This document shows positions 23,209 through 57,161 of a DNA stretch of 64,000 nucleotides, one piece after another. The stretch comes from Daucus carota subsp. sativus (Eukaryota; Streptophyta; Magnoliopsida; Apiales; Apiaceae): positions 46,436,689 through 46,500,688 of the forward strand of contig NC_030381.2 in the NCBI RefSeq assembly GCF_001625215.2, read 5' to 3'. Position numbers and translations under genes: made by a program. The notes beneath the pieces were generated by a model. The model saw only the letters and a list, made by a program, of their open reading frames with translations, searched no databases and was not told the DNA's origin. Position 1 is the first letter of the stretch. The number at the start of each line of letters is the position of its first letter.

Positions 23209-26200
23209 TTAAACTACTCCAGATGGAAGGCGCAAGACAAGTTGTCCCCCGAAAACACTGCAAGAAGAAAGAACAGAAAACGTGCAAAGCAAGAACATGT
23301 TATTATAAAATTCCATAGTTGTAGATTGATCCCAGCATAGAAGCTTAATGAAATTTCACCTTTTAACATAGTAGTAACAGAAGTCTGCTAGGATAAAGGT
23401 TTGAACTATTTCTGAAATCAGAACCATAGAAGGCCATAGTCCATATCCCAGAGCAACAAGTAGATGGCCACGAGTGTCCAGCACCTACAACACAGAAATA
23501 ATTTTACTCCATAGTACTTTTCATTGCTAAATAAACCGCATCAAATTAAGTAGGCATTCCAAACCATATACTCCAGAGAAGTTGTACGCCTCTTTCTATT
23601 ATTTTTATTAATATTATTTTTGTTGTTGAAGTTGTTGTTATTATTATTTATTTTGCAAAAATAGTCATCAATTAAATTGTTTGGGTTAGGTGGAATTCGG
23701 AAAATTCCAATTAGACATGATTAGGCAGTCAATCTTGAAGAGGCACTCAAGATGGGGGTATAAATTTCAATTACAAATTTTTGAAAGATACTTATTACAC
23801 AGAACTAACTTGTATAAAATTTTCTTTATTTGATTTAGTGGGGATTATTTTACTTGTATATAAGATATTGTTGATACAAATTTTATGCTTTATATATAAA
23901 TAATGTTTAAATACATCCGATTAATCTCCACCTAGCCAATTAATCAGTACTAAGTTGTATAAAATTTTCTTTATTTGATTTAGTGGGGATTATTTTACTT
24001 GTATATAAGATATTGTTGATACAAATTTTATGCTTTATATATAAATAATGTTTAAATACATCCGATTAATCTCCACCTAGCCAATTAATCAGTAGAAGGT
24101 AGTCTTGAAACCTCGACCCGCCATATATCTATCTTGAAACCCCTGTACCCAAGATTGTAAAGAACATGCTGAATGCAGTATTAAGCTATAAGCAAGCACA
24201 AACCTGGAGAACCCAGTGGGCACAGCTCAAGAACCTTGCAACACCCAAAGCGAACACATAATGAGCTGTAAATGGTTCAACAATCTGAAACCAGAAAGAA
24301 AGAGAAGTCAGACCAATAACAATTACTAATGTTGTGTTTGGTTGGGGAGAATAAATGAAATTTGAACTATATTATGGACCATTGTTTATAATTTTCATTC
24401 ATTCCCCCATTCCATTCCTTACATCCTATACTAGAAGTCACACCCCCAATTTGGGAAGGAATGCTCCATTTTTGATATACACAATTTCTTCTCAAACTCA
24501 TCATAAAAGTTTTGTACTCAAGTCTTTCTCAAAGCTTCTCTCTTACCTCTATTTTCTATTTTTATTTTTCATTTTTACTCATTCAATTCTATTCCATTCT
24601 ATCCTCCCCAACCGAACACAACATAAGGGGAACAAACTCCTCATCAGCATTCTGATAGTTACCTTGGTATTTTGCATAACACGCAGTTGGGGGAGCACAG
24701 AGACAGATTCCAAATATACACAGAAACCCCAGAAGAATCTGTTAATGAAGTTGTGTGATGTAGATGGATGGACTAACATTGCTAATACTGCGCAAGGAAT
24801 CACCTACAATACAAGGCAAATCAAGCTAAGTCGGAAATATAAACATCAGAACAATAAGTTACAAATAAGCAACCAAATTATGTTCTGCCTGCATGTCCAT
24901 GTAAATTAAAACAACCTACGATAGCACGTAGTAAAAGGTAACCAAGCAGCATGACGCACTTGAGGATATGTCCTATCTGCCTTTAAGGGTGAATGACAAT
25001 ACGCAAGGAGAAGGAGCTAAGTTTAAACTGTTCATACTAGTAGCACTTAAAAATTTGCTTTATTTAGTAAAAAGAAGTATTTGCCTAAGAGTCTGAGATG
25101 AATCATTCAGAACAATCGTTAGGCAAGTTCCCTCAGGTTTCTGGGAAAATTTCATTCTAACTCCTTGGATGAGCAGTTTCTGACTGATGTCTACTGGAGA
25201 CCGGAGAGTATTTAGTCTTACTTCCCCTTTGTTATAGGCTATTTATATCACTTTACCATAAGATCTCTTTCAAGGTTTCCATACAATGAATTGAAGAGAA
25301 AAAAAATGCATATATGAAGTATTGTAGTCTATAATTACTGTCTCGAAATATTAGAAGATAGAAGAATGGAGTTCATTGTTTATTGTAAGAAAAGGTTTAA
25401 CGTTTAAGACCATGCTGCAGAAGCAAAACTTACCACATAATATATTGCAAAATTGTCTTTGTCCTCCATATAGCTTGACCGCAGTTTGAAGCGAATCATA
25501 TATATGACCCATAAGGTTGTACCGAGTGTGGCTAAATCAAGCAAGGTATGGATGTCATATTCCATGACAAAACTACAGTACAGTCTGACAGCCAAAAACA
25601 AAGCTGTCAATTCCTGGGATTTAAGTGAGAGTCCTGCAGTAATTTGAAAAAATAAATTCAGTGGTTTAAAGCAAGACTGATAGTAACTAAGGTTTAAATA
25701 TATACAAAGAGTATAGAGCACTGATACATTGGCCTAAAGTTCCCAATGGTAAGCTAAAATCAATCATGATAACTAAGGCATCCTTCTGAATGTTTGACCT
25801 TAACCAAGAAAGGCACAGATCCTTAACAAGCCCATCAAATATAGGAGTTAGAAACAGCAAGTATCTCTTTTTATTGGAAAATATAAGTATGTTAGAAGGC
25901 AGAACGAGGTTCTCCCAAATTAATGAGATTAAGCTTTAGTAAAATTTGGTATCTATAGCAAAGACCGAAAACTGTATACTTTTACACCCAAAATATACAA
26001 ATATAATTCAGATTTCACCCAAATTCATTACAATCAAACAAACCTCATATAGCAAAGTAACAGGCAATAACAGAACACTAAAACTACAATTTTTTACAAT
26101 TACACCCACAGGTCTGCTGAAACAAAAAAACTCTCTCCGAAGCTCTCATCAGAATTCCAAAACCCCAAAATTCAAACAAGGAAATAACAAACACTAACTT

Positions 26201-35344: not shown

Positions 35345-41116
<5,772 letters not shown>

Positions 41117-42381
41117 TGGTGCAAGCTGAGGGAGGCGAGTGTTGTCTGTGTGTGTGTTTGTAAAAGTGGTTGTACGCTTTGGGGGAAATATGTGGCGTTT
41201 GTATTTTGTGGATATATAGGGGGTTGGATCCTGTCCAGTGTCAACCCTTGAAACTTTACACTGCTGTGTTCAACTTTTATTTTCCAGATTTTTTTTTTGA
41301 AATATTTGAATATTCGATTCGTTAGTATTTTCTAATATGAATATTCAATTCAGATTTCAATAAATCTTAAATTGGGAAGTATTTAATATATTTTTAGGAT
41401 TATAAGTATTAAATTTTAATTGAAATAACTAAATATCTTATTATTTTTATGAATATTATATATTTTGAAAAGTTCATGGTATTTCCTATTAAATCCCTCG
41501 ATTAGAGTTAAGTTTAATGTAGAACACTTTTTTTAAAAAAAACATGGAGACCACTTATGTTATGCACGTAAAATATTTCATAAAAACATTGTAAAATGTA
41601 TAGTTTTGCAAATCATGTTCTACGAAATCATTATTTCATTTAAAATCTCGAATATGATATAAGTTTTACATGATGTGGAACATTACAAAATATTTTGTTC
41701 TGTGAAATATGTTAATTTGCAGAACATTTGTTCAACTTGCAGAACACACATTATTTACTTATTAAACATAGATGATATTCAACAATTTTAATGAATACAT
41801 CATATTTGTGAGACATATTTTACAAAACAATGTATTTTATCGTGTTTTGATTAAGAACATACGTGGTCTCCGAGGTTTTCAGCAGTCTTCATAAAACTTT
41901 CCTCTAAATAAATGATTAGATATATAAGAATAATATGTGAAGCAAGAGGGAAGTTCACAGTTCAGCAATTACGATCGAGAAAGCCAATTCATTTGAATAA
42001 AGTTTTTGTACTTTTAAAATCTTATCGTATAAAGATGTAAAATTAGATGTTTAAAACTTGATTTATGAAATTTGTAAGTAGATATTTCCTTTACCAAATT
42101 GAAAAATACTCTTAATCAAATTGGTGGTTTAAGAAATATTGACACTCAAACCTGAATTACCTAATTTTTATACATTCAATCTGGACACAAATGTCTAAGA
42201 GAATGTTATATGTCCTTAAAAACAGTTACAGACTACTATTAATGACACTATAACATTTCAAGTGTGACATTATAATGTTATGTCATTCAATCTCGACACA
42301 AATCTCAAAAAGCGTTATATATCCTTAAAAAAGGTTATAGAATTTTAATGACGCTATAATATTTCAAGTGTGATATTATAA
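41117..42381. other. Intergenic region upstream of TPI
   Basis: 41117-41300 holds the TPI 5' UTR and promoter. 41480-41900 has several 'gttctgcaaa', 'agaacat' and related words, in both orientations, like an old MITE. 42140-42370 has an imperfect duplication of 'acactataatatttcaagtgtga' with about 120-bp spacing. No gene is seen. Confidence 0.4.
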
Positions 42382-42970
42382 TATTGTGTTTGATTGAAAT
42401 GAATAAAATGAAATAGTGAATTAAAAGGAAATGATAAGGGGTAGGAGGAGGACTTAGAAAAAAAGTGAATGGGTATATTTTTTTACGTGAGAGTGGGAGT
42501 TTTTCTATTTTGATTTACTCCACTGCCGTGATTGAACGAGAATCAAGAAGAGGCTCGTGGGATTGACGCGAGGGGGTAGGGATGACTATAATTTTGGGAG
42601 CGAACTCCAGATAAATATGAAGCGCATGGATACAAGTTAGGCCTTGGAATGAAAGACAATTTCAAATCCGTTTTGTCTCCGAACAAGGAAGTTATAAGTA
42701 ATGCAACTATGAATCTCATGGAGAATTCGATCCTGGTTCACGATGAACGCTGACGGCATGCTTAACACATGCAAGTCGGACGGAAAGTGGTGTTTCCAGT
42801 TTGACAGAGAATATGTATAATTAAGAATGAAACATGCATTCACAAAATTGTGAGTTTGAGCTTAAAGTGTTAGGAATGGAATAAAAATTATAAACATTAC
42901 TACTATATCATAATTTAGATTTCATTCCATTCTATTCCCTCATTTTCATTCACGCAAGTCAAACACAATA
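42382..42970. mobile_element. Tourist-like MITE containing captured plastid DNA
   Basis: Ends TATTGTGTTTGA and (other strand) TATTGTGTTTGA, flanked by TAA on both sides (42379-42381 and 42971-42973). At 589 bp it is about twice the size of the related MITE at 24330. The extra length is a 280-bp plastid-derived block (42518-42800) in the middle. Confidence 0.85.
42518..42800 (+). pseudogene. rrn16: Plastid rrn16 promoter, leader and 5' end of 16S rRNA (NUPT)
   Basis: From memory of plastid genomes, this matches the Prrn region ('gaggctcgtgggattgacg', 'gggagcgaactcc'), the leader ('gccttggaatgaaagaca', 'aagtaatgcaactatgaa') and the first ~85 bases of 16S ('catgcttaacacatgcaagt', 'ggtgtttccagt'). 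It then stops abruptly at 42800. Differences from the plastid version that I could see in the 16S part are mostly G-to-A or C-to-T, as expected for methylated nuclear copies. It is not a working rRNA gene. Confidence 0.9.
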
Positions 42971-42973
42971 TAA

Positions 42974-49789: not shown

Positions 49790-51383
49790 ATGCGGATTCT
49801 TTCTGTTTCCCGGGGTCTGCCAACTGCTTTGTTGGTTACGTTGTTGGTGTCCGTGAGCTTCTGCTATGCGGATGACAAAACAGTTGAGGTTGTCGGGCTA
49901 GGAGAATGTGCAGACTGTAAAGAAAGCAACATTCAGACTAGCCAAGCCTTTTCTGGTATAGACATATAACTTCTTTCCTCTATTATGTTGTTTGAGTACA
50001 TTATATTTTTCATTGTCAAGTTAATATGCACCAAAATGGTTCTTGTGGCTTTACATATCGACGAATTTTATAGTTTGACAAAGAATATTGATGACTAATA
50101 TACTGACTAAATTTTTGCATGCAGGGCTTCAAGTGACAGTCGATTGTAAAACGAGTGAGGGACATCTCCAAAGAAGAGGCGTTGGAGAGCTGGACAAAGA
50201 AGGAAAATTTAAGGTTAATCTTCCAAAAGAGATGTTGGAAGATGGAAAACTGAAGGAGGAATGCTATGCACAACTTCACAGTGCATCGTTTGCTCCTTGT
50301 CCTGCTCACGGTGGCATTGAATCAATGAAGATTATCTTCGAGTCCAAAACAGAAGAAAAACACACCTTTAGCACTAATGGAAAACTAAAATTCTCAGCAC
50401 AAGTGTGCACCTCAGCTTTCTTGTGGTCACACCCATGGAAGAAGTACCTTCCACCATTGACTCCTCATCCTTGGAAGAAGTACCTTCCACCATTGACTCC
50501 TCACCCGTGGAAGAAGTACTTTCCACACCCCTGGAAGAAGTCACCAGTTTATATGCCTCCAGTGTATTCATCCCCACCAACTCCAGTTTATACCAAGCCA
50601 CCAACCCCGGTTTATACCAAGCCACCAACGCCAGTTTATACTAAGCCCCCAACGCCAGTCTATACTAAGCCACCAACGCCAGTTTATACTAAGCCCCCAA
50701 CACCGGTCTATTCTAAGCCACCAACGCCAGTTTATACTCATCCACCTACGCCAGTTTATACTAAGCCACCAACGCCAGTTTATACACCAAAACCAGTTTA
50801 CAAGCATCCACCAAAGCCAGTATACTCACATCCCCCGACTCCAGTCTATACACATCCACCAAAGCCCGTTTATACTCATCCCCCAACTCCAGTTTATACA
50901 CATCCACCAAAGCCGGTTTACACTCATCCCCCAACTCCAGTTTATACACATCCACCAAAGCCAGTTTATAGTCACCCCCCAACTCCAGTATACACACATC
51001 CACCCAAGCCGGTTTATACTCATCCCCCAACTCCCAAATACTCCAAGCCACCAACGCCAGTTTATACCAAGCCACCAACGCCAGTTTATACACATCCACC
51101 TACGCCAGTATATACTAAGCCACCAACGCCAGTTTATACACATCCTCCAACGCCAGTTTATACACATCCTCCAACTCCGGTTTATTCACATCCGCCTATC
51201 TATAAGAAGCCTTGCCCGCCCATTGTTCCTCTGCCTAAGCTTCCTCCAAAATATTTCCACCACCCAAAAGTACCCAAGATTCCTAAAAAATTCTTCCCCC
51301 ACCCAAAAGTACCCAAGATTCCTAAAAAATTCTACCCCCACCCTAAATTGACCTTCCCACCGCTACCACCTTACCACCCTTGA
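49790..51383 (+). CDS. Ole e 1-domain proline-rich cell-wall protein (PRP2/PRP4-like)
   Basis: Two exons, 49790-49955 and 50125-51383, encode 474 residues. Exon 1 gives a signal peptide and 'KTVEVVGLGEC'. Exon 2 starts a pollen Ole e 1-like domain (about 56-155) with 'GLQVTVDCKTSEG', 'LKEECYAQLHSAS..PCPAHGG' and 'KLKFSAQVCTSAFLW'. Then come three 'HPWKKY' units, about 30 'PPTPVYTK/H' or 'PPKPVYTH' units, and a tail 'PPIYKKPCPPIVPLPKLPPK' plus two 'HPKVPKIPKKF' repeats. This matches the Arabidopsis PRP2/PRP4 layout. Such proteins are secreted and locked into the wall; hydroxylation of prolines and cross-linking through Tyr are expected. Repeat copy number is easily mis-assembled. Antisense frames over the repeat are shadows. 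Confidence 0.94.
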
Positions 51384-52753
51384 GGCCTCCATGATATTTC
51401 TGTTTTTATTTGAAGTTCACATAAACTGTTGTTTTCTTTTATTGAAAGATTTCGGGTAATATCCCTTGTTCCAGCAATAATAAATACCTTTCTGGATATA
51501 GAGATATAGTTGAAGATTGCAGATTAGTGCCGAGTGATTGTGGTACTACCTGATAAAAGAACGTTAATATCAGTCATGTATTTACATTACACGTTGAATG
51601 TTTATTTCAAGATTGTATTTGTAAGCTTTTGCTTCTATTTGTAAAGTTGAAATACAATGCATTTGTCCTGGTTATAATTTTATTAATTAATGCATTCATT
51701 TGTTCTTATTTCTTTAATACCAATGCAGTCTGTTATAAGCACCTGAGATTAATAAAAAATGGAAGAACAGTTAAAGGCCAATCTGGTAAACGATAAGTCT
51801 CATTCGCTACAATGTATATTCCAATTAGCGTTATAGGAAGAATTCTTAGAACGATGATGATGGTTAATACCTAGGTGGTTATCTAGCAAAATCACAGAAC
51901 TTAGCTCGTGAAGTTAAAAATGCCCCAGTGCCTGGTGGTTAGACGTACTGAAGGTGATTCCAACTCGGAAATAATAAACGTCTGCAACTAAATTCTGCAT
52001 AAATAGAAAGAAGTATATAAATACGGGGTAACAAATCAACAACTAGTTCTGCAGTTAATCAAAAGATAAAAATTAGTGCATCTGTAATTGTATGAAACAG
52101 AGTAGCAATAAAATTGATTAACAGTGTTCCAGTAACATCACAGTATTAGTATAAATTTCTTGTTGTATTTCCAAGTGTACGCTCTTTTACCAGAACTGCT
52201 ATGTTTTATGTAGGATTGTCAAAGAATTCTGCCGTTCCAATCAGCAGACAATGCGTTGTACTGCAAATGATTTTCTGCAGTCCGCAGAGCATAAAGTACA
52301 AAGAGCATAAACATGAGAATTGTGTATGACACAGTTGTGAAGTTTAATGCTTACTCCTATGTAATTGTATTCCGCTTGACAATAGAAAAGGTAGGTTGAT
52401 AGATCTTGAATGAGGCCATGCATGAAGCAATTTTACCTACTATAGTGTGCATATTATAACATTCATCTCCTCTGCTGGAAAGCCTCATTAAAATTTGAGT
52501 ACACCTATCAGCTAAAACGGTGGTCATTATTATGACAATATTACTTTTTGCTATACTGTCAGAAGTGACCACTTAAGCATTCATGGAATCCTTATCTCAC
52601 TGTCCCAGCATCTGTGAAAAACTTGTCATATGCCTATAAATTTACGCTACCACTCATTTCATACTTGCATCACATAGGAACTTGCTTCGAAGTATAAGAA
52701 AATGTGCCTCAAGGATCTCAAGTCTTAGGTAGCCCTTCATTGTTTTCTAAAGT
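51384..52753. other. Intergenic region between the two PRP genes
   Basis: 51384-51700 is the 3' region of the first gene. About 52400-52560 resembles the sequence upstream of the decayed third copy (54900-55070), so it is part of the duplicated unit. No gene is seen. Confidence 0.5.
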
Positions 52754-53953
52754 ATGACGGTCACAATGCAGGGTCTGCAGCTTCACAGAACTAAAACTAT
52801 CTTTTTCTGGCTATCATTGTTGTTTACAGCAATTTGCTGTCGCAACATAGATGAAAAGCTTGAGGTAGTAGGATTCATAGAACATTCGGATTTCACAGGA
52901 AGTAATATCAAAGTTAACCAGACCTTTTCAGGTATATACTTCTGAGTCCGATGCAAGTTCTGGTTTTTATTGGTGAAATAATACATTTAACTTATATACT
53001 CCTAGCTAATAGTAATTCTGTGCTTGCATCATGCAGGATTATATGTTACAATTGTTGGCAGGTCTGCAGATGGAAAGCTTAAAACAATGGGATCTAGTAA
53101 ACTCAATGAAGAAGAAAAATTTAAAATATTTCTTCCCCAGGAGACTGTCAAAGATGGAGTGATCAGAAAAGACTGCTATGCGAAAGTCCACGGTGCTTCA
53201 GATTCATCGTGCCCTTTAGCCAACAGCGAAGAGACCTCAGTCATTATATTCCAATACAAGAGTCAAAAGAAAAATACTATAAGCCACTCCGCAAAGCTTA
53301 ACTTGTCTCCAATTACTTGCACTTCTAAGTCCTTCTGGCCATTCCAAAGACCTAAATGGTTACCTATTCTACCGCCACGTTTTAAACATCAAACTCCACA
53401 AGCACCAATCTTAACACCAGAAACTCAACTGGCACCCTCTTTTTCACCTTCCGATCAGCCAGTTTCATCACTTTCTCCACCATTATCACAGCCAGATGAT
53501 GTACCACCAGCAGTTAGTCCTGCATCTGACAACCCTCTACCCAATACTCCAGTTCCAGTATACAAGCACTCATCGCCAAGTCCATCACCTATATATCTCC
53601 CACATAAACATTACCCACCAGCATCCAGTGCTCCTTCGATTCTAAAACCAAAACAGCCATCTAAAGACCTTTCTCCAGCTCCTGCACCAAGTTCTGACAC
53701 TGAAGCATCCCCACTACCAGATGGACCATTGCCATCAAGCCCATCACCAACTGGAAATGCAGGCCTCTCTCCAGCTCCAATTCCAAGTTTTCACAATCTA
53801 GCATCCCCACCACCCAATGAAGCATTACCATCAGGTCTATCACCACCCCCTTCGGCTAACAATAATCCACGTCCACCCCATGCTCCAAGGTTTAGAATAC
53901 CACAACCTCCACCAATTCCAACAATCACCAGGCCATCTCCCCCTGATTCATAA
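52754..53953 (+). CDS. Ole e 1-domain protein with arabinogalactan-like Pro-rich tail (PRP paralogue)
   Basis: Two exons, 52754-52931 and 53037-53953, encode 364 residues; the exon phase is the same as in the gene 1.4 kb upstream. After a signal peptide come 'EKLEVVGFIEHSDF' and the Ole e 1-like domain ('GLYVTIVGRSADG', 'KDCYAKVHGASDSSCP', 'KLNLSPITCTSKSFWP'). The tail differs from its neighbour: no VYT repeats, but 'SPAPAPSSDTEASPLPDGPLPSSPSPT'-like Ser-Pro and Ala-Pro repeats, typical of arabinogalactan glycosylation. An in-frame second ATG at 52766 could also be the start. The role is probably in the cell wall; the exact function is unknown. Confidence 0.9.
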
Positions 53954-56111: not shown

Positions 56112-57161
56112 AGCCAACTTAACCGACGCTCTTGGGGCTATTTGACCGACGCTGAAAGTCCAGTTTGTACTACTCTTGGTCAGGCTATCACTAGTACAAA
56201 ATGAACTTTCAGCGTCGCACTTTCAACGTCGATTTTTCATTGAACGTGGCTTATAATACTTAATAGCGTCGGGTTTACCTTTAACAACATATTTTTTAAT
56301 AACTAAGCGTCGGCATTTTATATAATCGATGCAAATGGTCAGACCAATAGCGTCGGTTTCTAGAACCGATGCAAATGGTCAGACCAATAGTGTTGGCATT
56401 TTTCAGAACGGACGCAATGGGTAAGATCAATAGCCGACATTTTTCAGAACCGACGCAATTGGTTAGAACAATAGTGTCGGCATTTGTAAGAACTGACGCA
56501 ATTGGTAGAATAATAGCGTCGGCATTATCGACTATGGACACTAATAGTCAAGAGCATCGCCAACTTAACCGACGCTGTAGGCCTATACCTATAGCGTCTC
56601 CTACATTTGCTACGCCACTTAACCGACGCTCTTGGGGCTATTTGACCGACGCTGAAAGTCCAATTTGTACTACTCTTGGCCAGGCTATCACTAGTACAAA
56701 ATGAACTTTCAGCGTCGATTTTTCATAGAACGTATACTTAATAGCATCAGGTTTACCTTTAACACTATATTTTTTAATAACTAAGCGTTGGCATTTTATA
56801 TAACCGACGCAAATGGTCAGACCAATAACGTCAGTATTTTCTAGAACCATGCAAATGGTCAGACCAATAGTGTCAGCATTTTCCAGAACCGACGCAATGG
56901 ATAAGAACAATAACGTCGGCATTTTTCAGAACCGACGCAATTGGTTAGAACAATAATGTCGGCATTTGTAAGAACTGACGCAATTGGTAGAATAATATTG
57001 GCGGCATTATCGACTATCGACACTAATAGTCAACCAAGAGCGTCGCCAGCTTAACCGACGTTGTAGGCCTATACCTATAGTGTCTCCTACATTTGCTACA
57101 CCACTTAACCGACGCTCTTGGGGTTATTTGACCGACGTTGAAAATTCAGTTTGTACTAGTG
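56112..57161. mobile_element. Non-autonomous CACTA element in head-to-tail tandem
   Basis: CACTAGTACAAA starts at 56189 and again at 56689, and the inverse TTTGTACTAGTG ends at 57161. The unit repeats with a period of exactly 500 bp. Before 56189 is a further partial unit end (from about 56112). The interior is made of alternating 'GCGTCGG' and 'CCGACGC' motifs every 30-45 bp, the subterminal repeats of CACTA elements. There is no transposase. Confidence 0.88.

Follow-up and report, generated by a model that had tools for sequence, protein, structure and literature searches.

Depending on the species, plastid-derived sequences of plant nuclear genomes (NUPTs) have been reported to be located nearer to certain transposon superfamilies than expected, and their association with DNA transposons as a class was significantly positive in 3 and significantly negative in 22 of 30 species (PMC12572781). 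Tourist-type MITEs surveyed in carrot (PMC8227079) have a mean length of 319 bp, create 3-bp TAA/TTA duplications and occur in many copies. The family described here resembles them in its duplications, its copy number and its consensus of ~310 bp, and its terminal inverted repeat (TIR) has the core TGTTTGG, as in a table of Medicago PIF/Harbinger TIRs (PMC2213677). Unlike Tourist-type MITEs in general, the element at our locus contains a 307-bp plastid block; it also has TGTTTGA where the family core is TGTTTGG and is 72% identical to the family consensus. In the main text of three papers on transposon capture or plant MITEs (PMC13317346, PMC8903248 and PMC12595863), the strings 'plastid', 'chloroplast' and 'organell' occurred 0 times, and among the papers listed in literature searches, made mostly outside subscription journals, none was recognised as describing plastid cargo in a MITE.

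Here, we analysed a stretch of 64,000 nucleotides of carrot DNA (the window), in which a Tourist-like MITE with matching 12-bp ends and a TAA target duplication had been predicted. The element was found exactly where it had been placed, to the base, at 42382–42970 (589 bp, including the plastid insert). Read outwards to outwards, it consists of TAA, TATTGTGTTTGA ... TCAAACACAATA, TAA, with an inverted repeat that agrees at 12 of 12 positions; the target site duplications were read directly from the sequence at 42379–42381 and 42971–42973 and carry no strand. On the plus strand, the left MITE part (42382–42493, 112 bp) opens with the 12-bp TIR TATTGTGTTTGA and corresponds to approximately nucleotides 1 to ~126 of the 310-nucleotide consensus, and the right MITE part (42801–42970, 170 bp), delimited by the TIR search and the family alignment, ends in the inverted 12-bp TIR. 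When the 12-nucleotide ends of every TAA...TAA pair 150–1000 bp apart were compared across the whole window, two pairs agreed at 11 or more positions, namely 42382–42970 (12/12) and 24330–24623 (11/12). Dinucleotide shuffles of the window yielded a 12/12 pair in 0 of 40 cases and at least one pair of 11/12 or better in 14 of 40; thus the 12/12 repeat is meaningful; the 11/12 pair is accepted solely for having the repeat of 42382–42970.

This second pair delimits a cargo-free family member of 294 bp on the minus strand (24330–24623), flanked by TAA at 24327–24329 and 24624–24626, and its ends (TGTTGTGTTTGG / TGTTGTGTTCGG) form a repeat almost identical to that of the element. Aligned with this member, the right MITE part scored 37, against a mean of -12 and a maximum of 5 in 300 shuffles, and is clearly homologous; the left part scored 14, which is within the range of its shuffles (maximum 18). 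The member was absent from both lists of scored genome matches described below. Lying in opposite orientation, it contributes to a 184-amino-acid open frame (24355–24909) without a Pfam match.

With the right MITE part as query, 39 other matches were listed (the best 40 of 91 candidates having been scored), 69–78% identical to it, and all 39 were retrieved with their left flanks. Our own end-finder placed the element ends 262–336 bp apart in 38 of these relatives and 185 bp apart in one, its calls being poor in several (e.g. L035, L045, L046 and L066–L068). Identical 3-bp duplications flanked 26 of the 39, a count that leans upward, as does that of TAA or TTA duplications, because the end-finder scored identical duplications higher. 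Three characteristics of the Tourist type were seen: a 3-bp TWA duplication (TAA at this locus; TAA or TTA in 23 of 39 relatives), a PIF/Harbinger-like TIR common to the family (TGTTGTGTTTGGTTGGGGTG; the two ends of this element agree with each other at 12/12), and short length with many copies (a 310-nucleotide consensus and at least 39 relatives). Scoring was limited to the best candidates in both searches (40 of 120 and 40 of 91), and therefore more relatives exist. Two of the copies, L045 and L046, both lie on C6 (near 2.94 and 0.55 Mb); over the element they showed no difference, with a tree distance near 0, which suggests that they were duplicated recently or are a repeat of the assembly.

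Once the plastid block was removed, the element aligned from end to end with the 310-nucleotide family consensus, at 72% identity over 278 columns, which placed the block after approximately consensus position 126 and indicated that at most a few MITE bases were lost or duplicated. This full-length alignment bears on an alternative raised with the original prediction itself, in which the terminal repeats would be due to chance and the locus no more than a NUPT surrounded by ordinary intergenic DNA. That 14 of 40 shuffled windows contained at least one pair of 11/12 or better, and that the left part compared with the second window member scored within shuffle range, speak for it; the absence of any 12/12 pair from the 40 shuffles, the 39 listed relatives of the right part, the alignment of the block-free element with the consensus of those relatives over its full length and the cargo-free member in the same window speak against it. 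We rejected it on the shuffles at 12/12 together with the family alignment, and consider its probability negligible.

The sequence enclosed by the two MITE parts is plastid-derived. Here the prediction was right about an insert and short about its size, since ~280 bp had been proposed and comparison with nuclear plastid copies gave a plus-strand block of 307 bp at 42494–42800. Its predicted content was also confirmed, as it comprises the promoter region of the rRNA operon, the leader and the 5' start of 16S rRNA, with an abrupt end. Positions 42715–42800 (plus strand) matched positions 1–86 of the Rfam family SSU_rRNA_bacteria (RF00177) with an E-value of 5.4e-13 and 46.5 bits, under the gathering score of 50, and the 16S sequence is cut at the right junction; this match was seen only with a scan piece cut at the junction, uncut scans giving nothing. 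With an antisense frame across the right junction, 3 of 3 candidate proteins (from Helianthus, Musa and Melia) matched up to the junction and then diverged. Positions 42518–42800 were identical at 254 of 283 sites to a putative tobacco plastid stretch. Plastid origin was judged from the Rfam match, the antisense frames and this stretch. For the 42-amino-acid frame over the left junction, a homologue search found none.

A total of 18 other places in the same nuclear genome matched the block, and these copies (L009–L026) were used to fix its ends. The left end was reached by five copies, all of which ran upstream into a common sequence (~11 nucleotides or more; ending AAACCCAA, AAACGCAA or AAATCCAA) that is not in the element. 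Likewise, the right end was reached by five copies, and all five continued as 16S (GGCGGACG or GACGGACG), L021 for 8 nucleotides only, at a point where the element reads TTGACAG instead. Because the nuclear copies run on into plastid sequence and the element does not, the block extends over 42494–42800 and both of its ends are junctions. One copy, L010, looks mosaic at 1083–1390, as in rearranged NUPTs, with the promoter region coming after another stretch that we take to be antisense 16S. Searches with plastid patterns in viral_contigs and genome_contigs gave 0 matches, and the matches listed for the plasmid, E. coli and phage collections were confined to the 16S end of the block.

The same comparison touches on where the block came from. 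An indirect source, such as a plastid-derived stretch of the mitochondrial genome or an older NUPT, would be compatible with insertion of plastid DNA into a MITE and would alter the source only. One G>A change is common to the block and nuclear copy L022; a single site of the C>T/G>A type may easily arise in parallel, and both block ends are unique to the element relative to the 18 other copies examined. We regard an indirect source as unlikely.

Within the block, TTGACG and TATAAT are separated by 18 nucleotides at 42563–42592 (plus strand), forming a -35/-10-like pair of the sigma-70 type with 11 of 12 consensus letters that we take to be Prrn. The element contains four -35/-10-like sites, against 1.8 expected from shuffles, and this pair is the best of them. 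A plastid promoter is expected to have no role in the nucleus, and to our knowledge the plastid polymerase is not expected there. The promoter sequence letters were also sought in paper text and were not found.

The original prediction had left two options, insertion of plastid DNA into an existing MITE or a transposon that captured an organelle promoter and multiplied it, and had proposed a genome search for further copies with the same plastid block. We searched an assembly of 441 Mb in 11 contigs, with the window in C1 (56.3 Mb). C1–C9 are chromosome-sized (33–65 Mb each), and C10 and C11 are small; of four stretches read from C11, three were N and the fourth was partly N, and the one stretch read from C10 was half N. 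With the 589-bp composite as query, 41 matches were obtained (best 40 of 120 candidates scored in its own genome), comprising its own locus, 18 places where the plastid block alone matched and 22 where only the MITE did, and no second full-length match was present among them. The MITE-only matches listed comprised 21 right parts and 1 left part, and the latter sits 30 bp from a right part at C3:60505731–60505974. The plastid block was found in 0 of the 39 listed relatives at an E-value threshold of 1e-3, and at the same threshold no MITE family sequence was found around the 18 other plastid-block places, each taken with at least 1.1 kb on either side. As a positive control, the same MITE-family search did detect the element and L027. 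With a query spanning the right junction, 7 of 7 candidates were scored and the only one crossing the junction was the element itself; at another candidate, C7:38160012, the match stopped inside the block.

The proposed search therefore found no further copy, and the multiplied organelle promoter received no support: with the composite whole at its own locus only, 0 of 39 relatives carrying the block and the single crossing among seven right-junction candidates being the element itself, we rejected multiplied cargo. A cargo that recurs between the same ends, or is shown to have moved, would mark a Pack-type element; neither sign was seen among the right-junction candidates and the 39 listed relatives. 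Because no second copy of the combination of MITE and block was found, we favour a nested insertion over a spreading transposon.

The divergence of the two components points in the same direction. Measured against a majority consensus built from the 18 nuclear plastid copies, the block had 22 differences in 304 positions (~7%), of which 17 were C>T or G>A, the bias expected of NUPT decay, and 4 were transversions. The MITE part had 77 differences in 278 positions (28%) from its family consensus, including 29 transversions; the relatives behind the MITE reference may be of another subfamily, and the block reference is built from nuclear plastid copies. The difference between MITE and block was significant by Fisher's test both for all changes (p 5e-11) and for transversions (p 1e-6). 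When nine less decayed plastid copies, picked after the first comparison had been seen, supplied the consensus, the block had 23 differences in 307 positions and the MITE/block ratio was 3.7 (bootstrap 95% 2.5–6.1). Among the relatives listed, the nearest over the whole MITE was still 26% different and one was 22% different over 104 nucleotides of the right part; the terminal branch of the element measured 0.34 in a tree built before the last 18 relatives were added. Because the block is far less diverged than the MITE, we infer from this contrast that the plastid DNA entered after the MITE lineage had split off.

The TIRs qualify how this order is to be read. At both ends, the element deviates from the family TIR TGTTGTGTTTGGTTGGGGTG at positions 2 and 12 (G>A), which suggests, on comparison of repeats, that it may belong to a distinct subfamily. 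Since the same changes occur at both ends, part of the 28% may predate the last transposition of this copy; thus the contrast would date the block after the split of the lineage, not after the arrival of the copy at this site, and it is therefore compatible with later movement of the composite as well as with none. At TIR positions 13–24, the arms of the element agree at 6 of 12 positions, against 12 of 12 in the consensus arms, and this decay suggests that the copy is probably not recent. If about seven changes accumulate per kb in a million years (PMC7037861), a divergence of 0.077 would correspond to a block age of roughly 11 million years, and the age is probably lower because methylated C decays faster.

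These observations were also weighed against capture, in which the MITE would have acquired the block elsewhere, for example by gap repair after excision, and the composite would then have jumped to this site and possibly multiplied. Intact TIRs and TAA duplications enclose the composite, and its outer 12 bp match at 12 of 12 positions despite the strong divergence of the rest; the composite therefore owns the ends that transposition needs, and maize has Pack-type PIF elements that carry host cargo (PMC8903248). Such a history is, however, hard to reconcile with the lack of a second copy by the 589-bp, right-part and right-junction queries or among the 39 listed relatives, with a block less diverged than the MITE lineage, and with TIR positions 13–24 that have decayed differently at the two ends. 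We judge capture elsewhere to be quite unlikely, and multiplication after it is contradicted as far as was searched. A related possibility is that a PIF/Harbinger transposase moved the composite at least once after the plastid DNA had entered, so that a MITE would have relocated an organelle promoter. Since cut-and-paste transposition does not raise the copy number, finding one copy is no proof of immobility; we hold such a move to be quite unlikely.

Overall, the locus is very probably a NUPT inserted into a diverged Tourist-type MITE, probably at a repaired break. Insertion into an existing MITE, the first of the two options originally offered, is thus supported by a composite matched in full at its own locus only, by the 39 listed relatives, of which 0 carry the block, by a right junction that the element alone crosses among seven candidates, and by a block several-fold less diverged than the MITE around it. 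The sequence of events would begin with a Tourist-type (PIF/Harbinger-related) MITE of the ~310-bp family inserting here with a TAA duplication, and the strong divergence of its lineage from its relatives would precede the plastid insertion. A 307-bp plastid fragment would then have been pasted into the middle of the MITE, after approximately consensus position 126, most likely as filler when a double-strand break was sealed by end joining, with loss or duplication of a few MITE bases at most, and the block would subsequently have decayed, mostly by C>T/G>A changes. Integration of NUPTs is ascribed to end joining, with blunt junctions or 1–7 bp of microhomology (PMC6215612). At this MITE break point, where those are the features by which end joining would be recognised, the alignment has an uncertainty of a few nucleotides and the junctions are decayed; the end-joining route is what we infer for the entry of the block.

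Two diverged tandem units of ~106–111 bp (42162–42389) lie directly left of the element, with the MITE at the end of the second. A neighbouring tandem unit (42239–42283, plus strand) looks like the insertion site with no MITE in it, a weak and paralogous empty site: right of the insertion point it matches at 8 of 13 positions, and 1.4% of the 13-mers of the window do equally well. The composite lies ~1.27 kb upstream of the predicted start of a plastid-type triosephosphate isomerase, whose minus-strand exons occupy 36039–41116 (two frames match Pfam TIM); a putative plastid-transit-like first exon starts near 41116, in a frame without a Pfam match. Elsewhere in the window, a SUVH-type protein had its best named matches in Heracleum, Apium and Daucus, and positions 56117–57158 hold 2.1 copies of a 486-bp tandem unit, each with arrays of 43-bp subunits. 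Two proline-rich open frames at 50088–53953, one with a 24-bp-unit tandem array at 50574–51193, presumably encode cell-wall-type proteins.

This locus is a clean nested insertion, in which a MITE with intact ends and duplications surrounds a plastid fragment delimited with an accuracy of a few bases. Family alignment, junction queries and the divergence of the two components relative to each other show here how a candidate for capture can be told from a nested NUPT. Multiplied cargo, had it been true, would as far as we know have been a novel means of spreading organelle DNA within a nucleus; as it stands, the locus adds one more case of co-location of a NUPT and a transposon and changes no principle. 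Compared with NUPTs, the block is similar in being a short plastid stretch with arbitrary ends at a single site and in its C>T/G>A-biased decay (as described for NUPTs in PMC7037861), and it differs in lying inside a MITE; of the 18 other block copies examined, none is in a MITE of this family. Pack-TYPE (Pack-PIF) elements (PMC8903248) share with the composite the ends of a TIR transposon around foreign sequence, but the cargo here is organellar, and the searches gave no evidence that it had moved or multiplied. Finally, OsRpl6-1 of rice (PMC2631504) likewise has organelle-derived nuclear DNA beside a PIF/Harbinger-type element; in that case the transposable element was proposed as the source of the 5'-UTR of a transferred mitochondrial gene, whereas here non-coding plastid DNA lies within a MITE.
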